From Alphaproteobacteria bacterium (GTDB lineage Bacteria > Pseudomonadota > Alphaproteobacteria > Rhizobiales > Devosiaceae), in the NCBI GenBank assembly GCA_018828145.1, contig JAHJWO010000054.1, positions 186,001 through 250,000 on the forward strand: a stretch of DNA of 64,000 bases, written 5' to 3'. A program made the position numbers and the translations under genes. This document shows, in pieces, positions 30,624-33,032 of the stretch (position 1 is the stretch's first letter; each line of letters begins with the position of its first letter). The notes beneath the pieces were generated by a model. The model did not search any database. It was not told the origin of the DNA and saw only the letters and a list, made by a program, of their open reading frames with translations.

Positions 30624-30777
30624 CGTCACCCTCGGGCTTGACCCGAGGGCTCTGCACTAACTGGCGATCTCCCCCCACAAATCCCACCAGTGGGGAATTG
30701 CTCTTTCAACCAGCCGCCGCTCACCGCTTGAGCATGGCTTGAAGTGCAACACCCTCGGGTCAAGCCCGAGGGTGACG
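30624..30777. mobile_element. MITE-like, internally deleted copy of the GIY-YIG unit
   Basis: Bounded by CGTCACCCTCGGG..GGGC (30624-30650) and its inverted partner (30751-30777), 26 of 27 bases complementary. Inside the left end it keeps a decayed copy of the GIY-YIG 3' coding end (30659-30735), up to CGCTTGAGC; then it jumps to CTTGAAGTGCAAC, which matches the right flank of the full unit (CTTGAAGTAAAAC). The deletion removes roughly 215 bases of coding sequence. The homology also extends about 12 bases outside the left repeat (CCTCCACCACCG). Confidence 0.7.
30659..30735 (-). pseudogene. Remnant of a GIY-YIG nuclease C-terminus
   Basis: The minus-strand translation includes ERAIPHWWDLWGEIAS and stop, aligning with EQSNPDWRDLWEEITS at the end of the intact nuclease at 30886. 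Upstream the match continues at DNA level with small changes as far as CGCTTGAGC and is then truncated. No start or catalytic residues remain. Confidence 0.65.
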
Positions 30778-30851
30778 GCTGGGGAGTGTGACACGATCGG
30801 AAAAGCAGGATGCTGCCAGAGGGCCGGGCACCAAGTGCCTCCACCACCGCG

Positions 30852-31221
30852 CGTCACCCTCGGGCTTGACCCGAGGGCTCTGCACTTAACTGGTGATCTC
30901 CTCCCACAGATCCCGCCAATCCGGGTTGCTCTGCTCGATCAGCGCCCACTTCCAGTGCTGATACCAACGCTTGAGCGACGTCTCGCGCTGGATGGCGGCA
31001 GTGATCTCGGCGTGTTCTTCAAAATACACCAGGCGCTTGATGGCGTTGCGCTTCGTGTGTCCGTCGGCCAGTCCCTCGCGATGCTCAAAGACGCGCCGCA
31101 CCAAGTCACTGGTTACGCCAATATAGGTCCGTCCACGCCGCATATTGGCAAGAATATAGACAAAGCCGCCCATGCCGAAATCTTGAAGTAAAACGCCCTC
31201 GGGTCAAGCCCGAGGGTGACG
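30852..31221. mobile_element. GIY-YIG unit with 27-bp hairpin-forming inverted ends
   Basis: A 370-base unit whose ends, 30852-30878 and 31195-31221, are perfect 27-base inverted repeats. Each end is itself a hairpin (CCCTCGGG, loop CTTGA, CCCGAGGG). The only gene inside is the 95-residue GIY-YIG protein, whose stop is 8 bases from the left repeat and whose start is 22 bases from the right repeat. No target-site duplication is obvious. Confidence 0.6.
30886..31173 (-). CDS. Small GIY-YIG nuclease (UPF0213-like)
   Basis: 95 residues, a stand-alone GIY-YIG domain. The two-strand motif is FVYILAN and TYIGVTSDLVRRVFEHREG (Tyr, the conserved Arg, then His), with the metal-binding Glu in QRETSLKRW and a C-terminal WRDLWEEI. 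The normal residues for a divalent-metal nuclease are in place. Such proteins are very common, often in many copies, in alphaproteobacteria, and their biological role is poorly known. Here the gene is enclosed by inverted hairpin repeats and has a deleted relative nearby, which suggests it may be the active part of a small mobile unit (inference). Confidence 0.88.
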   Translation of the reverse strand: MGGFVYILANMRRGRTYIGVTSDLVRRVFEHREGLADGHTKRNAIKRLVYFEEHAEITAAIQRETSLKRWYQHWKWALIEQSNPDWRDLWEEITS

Positions 31222-31248
31222 GCTGGTGGGTGGGGCGACAACCGCCGC

Positions 31249-31830
31249 TCACGCCTTCCCCTCCCGCACCACCTCCACCACCAGCGCCCCCGCTGGCAGC
31301 GGCCGCAACAGCTCCGTCTCCGGCCGCGTCAAAAACAGCCACGCCGCCCAGTCCTCGGGCTTCAGCACACACACCTGCCGGTCGTGAATCGGCGCGATGT
31401 CCGGCCCCGGCTCCGTGGTCAGCATGGTGAAGCTCAGCGCCCCCTCCGCGTCCTCGCTCCACAGGCCCGCAATGCCCATCACGGCGGAATCCTTGAGCGC
31501 AAAGCGGTGCTTGGTCTTGGGATATTTGCTGCCGGTGAATTCGAAGAACCCCGACAGCACCACGACGCAGCGCCGGCTATCGCCGAAGTGGCGGCCGTCG
31601 GACTTGAAGTTGAAGATCGGGCCGGCCTTGGGCCGTGGCGGCGGAAAGCCGAAGCGCATCGACACCAGCTCGACGCCATTGCCCGCCGCCCGCAGCACCG
31701 GGCCATGATCGCCGATGCGGATATCATCGGCCGGCAGCAGGGCGGCGTCGTCGCCGGCGGCCAGTTCCAGCGCCGCGATGGCGCTTGCATAGTCGGCCCG
31801 GCTCACATGCTGTTCATAATCGTTGCACAT
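31249..31830 (-). CDS. SRAP (YedK/HMCES-type) abasic-site protein
   Basis: 193 residues. SOS response-associated peptidase family: binds abasic sites in single-stranded DNA and forms a stable thiazolidine link through the N-terminal Cys after Met removal. C2 is present (MCNDYE, where most have MCGR), the Asn-type site in FNFKSDGRHF, E97 in LSGFFEF and H149 in APIHDRQ. So the catalytic set looks complete. It is shorter than the usual 220 residues. No LexA box was seen close by. Minus strand, separated from the GIY-YIG unit by 27 bases. Confidence 0.88.
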   Translation of the reverse strand: MCNDYEQHVSRADYASAIAALELAAGDDAALLPADDIRIGDHGPVLRAAGNGVELVSMRFGFPPPRPKAGPIFNFKSDGRHFGDSRRCVVVLSGFFEFTGSKYPKTKHRFALKDSAVMGIAGLWSEDAEGALSFTMLTTEPGPDIAPIHDRQVCVLKPEDWAAWLFLTRPETELLRPLPAGALVVEVVREGKA

Positions 31831-32386: not shown

Positions 32387-33032
32387 GGCAATTCCTTGGG
32401 GCAGCGTGAGCAAGCCACTCGGCACGCAAAATCGTTAGCAATCCCTTTCGCCACGATCCGGCGCAGCAATACCTGCCTGCTCCGGCCTTCAAACTGCCGT
32501 GACCGCCATCCCCGGGCGCGAACCGGCGCAAAGCCGCACGCCACAAGGGCTCGGCGCTCCAAGACAAAACTTATCCCCGTCCCCGGGAACCTCCGCCATA
32601 CTCTGCCCATCCCCGCCATTCACGCGGTGCCGACGAAGCATCGGGCGGGGGGACTGGCTGCATGGGGTCGCCCAGGCCGATGCGTGTATGCTGACCACCG
32701 GCCTCGCGCCGTCCCACAGGGCAAATCTCTCCAGTGGAGCGATTTGAGGTTGGAAGGCCATGAGCGCCATGCGCGAATGGCACGACCCCCCAGGCGGAGC
32801 GACACGATAAAACCCGAAAGGGCAGCCGCTCGATGCGTGCGCAGGAATACCAGCTCGTGTGAAGCGGCTTTCGCCTCTTCAAACCAAACAATTTGGCGGC
32901 GCAAGCCGTCGGGACGAAAGCCGCTTCATACCGTGAAACCGTGAGGCCATAGGGCCGGGCGGCGCGGACCTGTGCCTGCACGACAAAGGATCATGAGAGG
33001 CGAGCCATGCCCGACACCGCATGCCGGCGGCT
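32387..33032. other. Gene-less region with a long inverted repeat
   Basis: 646 bases in which no frame has a ribosome site or a family-like product. The notable structure is GAAGCGGCTTTCG (32861-32873) with its exact complement at 32915-32927, a 13-bp stem extendable by T-A, G-T and T-A pairs, with a 41-base loop. A high-GC stretch with no clear promoter makes up the rest. Confidence 0.5.

Follow-up and report, generated by a model that had tools for sequence, protein, structure and literature searches.

A small GIY-YIG nuclease gene bracketed by CGTC-type REP hairpins as candidate enzyme for the spread of these repeats

Two large superfamilies of REPs have been distinguished, of which the GTAG REPs are linked to RAYTs, whereas the CGTC REPs 'apparently lack a dedicated transposase' (Di Nocera, De Gregorio and Rocco, 2013; PMC3733652). 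According to this source, the origin of the CGTC REPs was an open question in 2013. They are mostly found in Alphaproteobacteria, S. meliloti and A. lipoferum being counted among the species that carry them, and they include the dRS3 repeats of Neisseria (CGTC-1 of the Neisseriae) and RPE-4 and RPE-6 of Rickettsia. Their CGTC, TGTC or CCTC head lies outside a stem of 8-9 pairs with a loop of 4-5 bases and they form inverted dimers; in families 1-4 the stem positions 1-2 are 'almost invariably' A-T, and 'most' have a CCA-like tail (PMC3733652). The term GIY-YIG is absent from that paper. The same holds for the words nuclease, endonuclease and RAYT, taken as word starts, in the 2025 RepRanger paper (PMC12306157), and a link between GIY-YIG genes and REPs was found in none of the titles, abstract openings and term counts of the searched literature, a coverage that leaves out most subscription papers and all preprints.

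Here we describe a locus at which such a link is evident. In the REPIN-RAYT system (in part after PMC3733652), a low-copy enzyme gene is flanked by REPs, many inverted REP pairs are dispersed over the genome, and the enzyme lineage is matched to its repeat. The present system is alike in all these respects, but its enzyme is a GIY-YIG hydrolase instead of an HUH tyrosine transposase and its head is CGTC instead of GTAG. With MITEs and their parent insertion sequences it shares terminal inverted repeats, a gene-bearing parent and many short gene-free copies; it differs in having a unit without a known transposase, hairpins as ends and no target duplication that could be found. Free-standing homing endonuclease genes likewise consist of a single nuclease gene that spreads, whereas the gene described here is flanked by dispersed hairpins that form large families, and it was not seen inside an intron or intein. 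A REP with a dedicated nuclease is already known in the form of RAYT, and it would be the unrelated enzyme fold that is new. We consider it likely that the CGTC-type REPs have the small GIY-YIG nuclease as their dedicated enzyme, with the role that RAYT has for the GTAG REPs.

The locus lies in a stretch of 64,000 nucleotides (the window), which is part of a 4.43-Mb Devosia genome. Its centre is a unit of 370 bases (30852-31221) with perfect 27-base inverted ends (CGTCACCCTCGGGCTTGACCCGAGGGC), each of which is a hairpin. Both features had been put forward by a sequence-only reading and both were recovered, the palindromes with an exact 21-base core; four exact 21-base palindromes occur in the window and none in 100 shuffles of it. 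The left hairpin (30852-30887, + strand) and the right one (31186-31221, - strand) point with their tails towards the gene and consist of a stem CCCTCGGG/CCCGAGGG, a loop CTTGA, an unpaired head CGTC and a tail CTCT, with stem and loop within the 8-9 and 4-5 of the CGTC-tagged superfamily. Since the first stem pairs are A-C and C-G, not A-T, and the tail is CTCT, not CCA, the Devosia hairpin was not placed in the four families of PMC3733652. Outside CGTC some 13 bases are conserved before the background level is reached (31 distinct REP ends), which gives the unit an outer left shoulder CCTCCACCACCGCG (30838-30851) and an outer right shoulder GCTGGTGGGTGGGG (31222-31235). No Rfam family scored above its gathering threshold within the window.

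The gene of the unit (30886-31173, - strand) encodes a protein of 95 residues that matches Pfam PF01541 (E 6e-13) and no other family, and is thus not an HUH tyrosine transposase of the RAYT/TnpA-REP type. It had been called the only gene of the unit, and it is the only ORF there with a Pfam match: the three overlapping ORFs in other frames (66-150 residues) have none, and no known strand-joining transposase is encoded within the unit. The residues Y6, Y17, R27, H31, E64 and N83, which are the catalytic positions as known from I-TevI, are kept in 163-167 of 169 related proteins (154 genes described below plus 20 hand-picked paralogues, minus duplicates), so that domain and conserved residues both place the protein in the GIY-YIG superfamily. 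The gene is under purifying selection, with a median dN/dS of 0.11 for 16 Devosia genes (107 pairs of at least 60% identity and dS below 3, the median dS of 1.36 being near saturation). An AlphaFold2 model (pLDDT 92.7) has UPF0213, Slx1 and the UvrC nuclease domain as nearest structures, with E below 0.001 for UPF0213 alone (1zg2; profile E 8.8e-8, TM 0.60); UPF0213, the N-terminal domain of UvrC and Slx1 resemble the protein in fold and conserved residues. Slx1 is a nuclease of branched DNA by its PDB titles, an activity that would fit an enzyme sensing the base of a hairpin. Slx1 and UvrC are repair enzymes that are not known to be linked to repeats. No NCBIfam model scored above cut-off for the protein. 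A role in defence was considered and set aside, as PADLOC gave no match among 15 proteins and neither PHROGs nor a phage collection gave one for the nuclease. In Caulobacter, GIY-YIG genes are under the control of XRE regulators and a phage regulator: CCNA_00744 and CCNA_01405 of Caulobacter crescentus go up upon deletion of the XRE regulators and down upon expression of the phage regulator (PMC10688885). If these two belong to the family of the window nuclease, a nuclease linked to repeats would be under phage control.

The hairpin is a dispersed repeat. Its core has 41 copies in the Devosia genome at up to three mismatches, against none for the reversed control, and 13 pairs of cores are arranged in + then - order, with 54-56 bases between the members of a pair. 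These dispersed inverted REP pairs with a short spacer are REPINs. Their inner ends, CTCTNCACTT and AAGTG, recur with some variation in the gene unit, and by sharing hairpin and inner ends the REPINs resemble the unit without its gene. Several contigs of this draft genome end in or near a REPIN (L003-L005, L008, L009, L014, L015, L023, L027 and L030); the repeat counts are therefore lower bounds and the true number is probably higher. Among 136 genomes of the Devosiaceae the number of core copies ranges from 0 to 242. A RAYT as hidden driver was rejected, since the RAYT-type family PF01797 has no match in the Devosia genome even at E up to 10 and is weakly associated with the repeats over 385 alphaproteobacterial genomes. 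Another dispersed sequence is located at 32566-32965 of the window, with a 17-base inverted repeat inside it (32857-32931); it matches many Devosia genomes, often in separate pieces that look as if internally deleted.

At 74 bases to the left of the unit lies a second copy of 154 bases (30624-30777), composed of a left hairpin (30624-30658, + strand), a right hairpin (30743-30777, - strand) and, by alignment, about 50 bases of the 3' end of the gene. The sequence-only reading had described it as a relative with the same ends, the same outer shoulder and the same inner flanks on both sides. The shoulder CCTCCACCACCG is indeed found at both 30610 and 30838; the ends are present, but the right one has a one-base difference at its inner edge, and of the inner flanks the left one agrees while the match on the right is only short. 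The relation proposed was that of an autonomous element to its MITE. The abundant short form, however, is the REPIN of about 88 bases, and the 154-base copy is a decayed gene. Deleted copies, which had been suggested as something to look for, and tandem copies recur at other loci: extra C-termini of the nuclease were found within 700 bases of 7 out of 164 genes and in 2 of 2792 control windows. At one of the seven genes (L048) the extra C-terminus may belong to that gene itself, its frame being broken. S. meliloti resembles the window in having a nuclease remnant on the left side of the intact gene.

We have collected a non-random sample of 154 non-redundant genes of the nuclease family (161 hits minus copies with identical inner sequence), taken from 16 of the 19 loci of a first set (three short matches were left out), 70 loci of the Devosiaceae and 70 loci from the search of the 385 genomes, where each set of 70 comprises 30 loci chosen by rank and 40 chosen by hand from the listed hits. 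CGTC-type hairpins with gene-ward tails are present on both sides of 73 of these 154 genes, compared to 1 of 2414 control windows, so that the supposed bracketing goes well beyond chance. Any hairpin with a CGTC or TGTC head and a gene-ward tail within 200 bases was found for 128 of the 154 genes and in 100 of the 2414 controls, and a flanking inverted repeat with a score of at least 16 for 80 genes versus 21 of 4718 control windows taken from the same sequences. When ORFs were used as control, a stem shared between left and right was seen for 17 of 69 nuclease ORFs, for 3 among 1183 other ORFs and for none among 272 small ones. The hairpin finder left 81 of the 154 genes without outward hairpins on both sides, which counts against the nuclease as the enzyme of the REPs; it misses REPs with long loops (e.g. 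at L296 and L298) and its counts are therefore low. Around the nuclease genes of L296, L298 and L306, from other families of the same order, longer nested hairpins are present that the finder missed and the inverted-repeat test caught. In 48 flanking hairpins G2, T3 and C4 are invariant, where the finder itself demands [CT]GTC. The first pairs are A-U in 34 and U-A in 36 of these 48, hence other lineages mostly follow the A-T rule for the first pairs.

The pairing extends to other classes. A search of the phylum gave 16 loci outside the Alphaproteobacteria, of which 15 show a hairpin on one side or more and 10 share a stem between the two sides. For 11 further loci of the class itself these numbers are 7 and 2, the latter being another point against the nuclease as the enzyme of the REPs. 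In a plasmid collection 33 records match. In nine of the ten that were examined, CGTC hairpins lie no more than 260 bases from the gene, and in eight of these nine they occupy both sides; the Photobacterium record has one such hairpin on one side, and that of Rhizobium tumorigenes has none near the gene. Three records of this collection (NZ_CP119140.1, NZ_AP026896.1 and NZ_CP069303.1; L309, L313 and L318) resemble whole chromosomes in size (2.2 to 4.9 Mb). The nuclease gene sits among CGTC-type repeats in S. meliloti, A. lipoferum and Neisseria gonorrhoeae, in the last case among CGTCATTCCCGCGCAGGCGGGAAT hairpins, which are repeats of the dRS3 type.

The stem sequence goes with the nuclease lineage. 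Left and right stems agree in 82 of the 96 genes that have hairpins on both sides (permuted mean 14.6, maximum 26) and in 43 of 51 outside the Devosiaceae (permuted mean 5.7, maximum 14), whereas the stems themselves differ between nuclease lineages. Paralogous nucleases of a single genome can carry different pairs of stems, and for several of them the hairpins are confined to one side or absent. A nuclease tree of the Devosiaceae, built from 63 rows and few columns, shows six changes of stem class, against a mean of 21 after shuffling, and 0 of 500 shuffles gave a number as low. Thirteen of 66 Devosiaceae loci are located within 1.5 kb of polA (identified by Pfam DNA_pol_A, E 1e-149 in L133), and at this place one nuclease clade (three loci) has CCCTCGGG stems and the other loci have CCCCGG or related stems. 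The test of distal repeats was weakly positive: distal repeats within the same 20 kb match the stem of the gene in 24 of 123 cases (permuted mean 10.2, maximum 25). Outside the Devosiaceae the figure is 9 of 60, compared to a permuted mean of 3.0 and a maximum of 11. Its weakness speaks against the nuclease as the enzyme of the REPs.

The genetic linkage between nuclease and REPs is also reflected in their distribution over genomes. The nuclease is found at E 1e-8 in 151 of the 385 alphaproteobacterial genomes, with up to 11 copies in one of them; Devosiaceae that have it show one to five hits per genome. When a strong nuclease hit (E 1e-25) is set against at least five REP matches, 101 of the 385 genomes have both, 21 the nuclease only, 46 the REPs only and 217 neither. 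This corresponds to an odds ratio of 22.7 (p 2e-35), where the REPs were counted by a covariance model (R1) built from hairpins beside these very nuclease genes, which favours such REP families. Moreover, the REP matches derive from about 18 scored candidates per genome and are capped by this number, and the genomes share descent, a non-independence that is narrowed by the tests within Devosia alone. PF01797 is present in 69 of the 385 genomes with a weak odds ratio of 2.0 for REP richness, and the odds ratio of the nuclease is 11.2 in genomes with PF01797 and 26.8 in those without. Within 75 Devosia genomes the median number of repeat copies is 61 with the gene (55 genomes) versus 5 without (20 genomes), and at least 40 copies are found in 34 genomes with the gene and in none without. 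Divided by nuclease clade, as assigned by hand from the listed hits with three genomes of partial hits kept apart, the medians are 98 for the clade of the window (21 genomes), 60 for a partial hit (3), 33 for other clades only (31) and 5 for none (20).

Part of these numbers counts against the nuclease as the enzyme of the REPs. Nine of the 31 Devosia genomes with other GIY-YIG clades only have at least 80 copies of the CCCTCGGG repeat, 28 of the 147 REP-rich alphaproteobacterial genomes lack both a GIY-YIG hit and PF01797, and fewer than five REP matches were obtained for 21 of the 122 genomes with a strong nuclease hit. Likewise, genomes that have the cognate gene cannot be told from those that do not by their fraction of exact copies (medians 0.31, 0.35 and 0.27). 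Loss of the nuclease after spread of the REPs, or service by another clade, could explain the REP-rich genomes that lack the cognate nuclease.

Occupied and empty versions of orthologous sites, as expected of a mobile element, were found in both Azospirillum and Devosia. In Azospirillum lipoferum 4B the spacer between sufB and sufC measures 617 bases and holds a REPIN, the nuclease gene and a second REPIN (four CGTC hairpins), whereas it measures 56-130 bases in A. ramasamyi (97.7% identity where the two align), A. oryzae, Azospirillum B510 and A. thermophilum. No CGTC hairpin is present at this place in these four or in the stretch of A. brasilense; in Azospirillum B510 another palindrome was seen there by eye. 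Gene and hairpins are thus absent from this site in five relatives, and the empty sites that had been proposed as a check do exist. In Devosia, eight REP sites of the genome G025 were inspected, picked for flanks that could be placed (two of them less surely), one of the eight (496497) being a different REP. At the syntenic places of G059 such REPs are missing; the 400-kb stretch of G059 that was compared is REP-poor overall (2 core matches versus 96 genome-wide). For the unit of the window, which is adjoined by an SRAP gene of the HMCES/YedK type (31249-31830), relatives with the SRAP neighbour gave no clean empty site, because the flank opposite the SRAP gene is not syntenic in them. Clean junctions were not obtained from close Devosia pairs either. 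A target duplication or an exact junction was not found, the intergenic flanks being too diverged for exact junctions, and this too counts against the nuclease as the enzyme of the REPs. In the relative G036 (L084) the SRAP gene is followed, by eye, by a GIY-YIG gene and a REPIN that both differ from those of the window, which suggests that the end of the SRAP gene may be a repeated landing place.

The sequence-only reading had taken the unit for a REP-like mobile element driven by its endonuclease. Bracketing beyond chance, recurrence in other lineages and the empty site in Azospirillum support the mobile unit; that the endonuclease drives it is our inference. We regard the small GIY-YIG nuclease as the strongest candidate for what spreads the CGTC-type repeats, most likely in the following way. 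The full unit would be a nuclease gene between two REPs with inward tails, or between two REPINs, and the dispersed REPINs would be its non-autonomous form, which keeps the ends but not the gene. The nuclease would recognise the hairpin of its own REP when single-stranded or extruded and nick it at CGTC, the base of the stem, after which replication or repair by the host would copy the REPIN thus freed, at times the entire unit, to other intergenic sites. Cleavage and transposition by the nuclease are thus predicted steps. A point against them is that GIY-YIG enzymes hydrolyse DNA and are not known to join strands. Still, with somewhat less confidence than we have in the role as such, we think it probable that a GIY-YIG hydrolase some 95 residues long, cutting CGTC hairpins and relying on copying by the host, created most CGTC REP families of the Pseudomonadota, including dRS3.

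The main rival explanation reverses the cause. A selfish, free-standing endonuclease gene would cut REPs or REPINs and be copied into them, the repeats themselves being made by something else. Small GIY-YIG homing genes are known, the gene of the window occupies the spacer of a REPIN, and such homing would yield matching left and right stems as well as a link between the presence of the gene and the number of REPs; REP-rich genomes without the nuclease exist, too. At sufB-sufC, however, gene and REPINs are present together or absent together (a REPIN could still have arrived first), and no other enzyme that might have made the repeats was linked to them: PF01797 is not found in the Devosia genome and weakly associated elsewhere, and CGTC REPs have no transposase by their side according to PMC3733652. 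Homing into pre-existing REPs therefore appears improbable to us, though it deserves to be taken seriously.

Less probable by a good measure is a domesticated host factor, i.e. a nuclease that processes REP cruciforms or serves in defence, near REPs that were selected as terminators or regulatory elements. The purifying selection (dN/dS 0.11), the hit number of one to five per genome among Devosiaceae with the nuclease and the regulation of the Caulobacter GIY-YIG genes by XRE and phage regulators (PMC10688885) would agree with such a domestication. It is hard to reconcile with a distribution that is patchy (151 of 385 genomes) and reaches 11 copies in a single genome, the insertion within the suf operon, the tandem and decayed copies, the lack of a PADLOC match in 15 proteins and the inverted architecture on both sides of the gene. 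The sequence-only reading had also named the alternative that common intergenic palindromes just happen to flank the gene. REPs are certainly abundant in some genomes (up to 242 copies), but the controls speak against it, with 1 positive in 2414 windows, 3 in 1183 other ORFs and none in 272 small ORFs, as does the recurrence of the pairing with different stems in other classes, and we give coincidence hardly any credence.

The preferred reading, the nuclease as dedicated enzyme of the CGTC-type REPs, has consequences beyond the locus. With a linked candidate enzyme, the origin of these repeats becomes testable with one small protein. If the reading is true, it would provide a role for the many unexplained genes that are annotated as 'GIY-YIG nuclease family protein', and it would explain the lineage-specific sequences of the repeats, each nuclease clade having its own stem. 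There would be a second, independent way of spreading REPs, and the unrelated HUH and GIY-YIG folds would both have been recruited to the same kind of genomic parasite. The nuclease would then be among the smallest enzymes that drive a genome-wide repeat family, and would do so without a strand-joining chemistry of its own.
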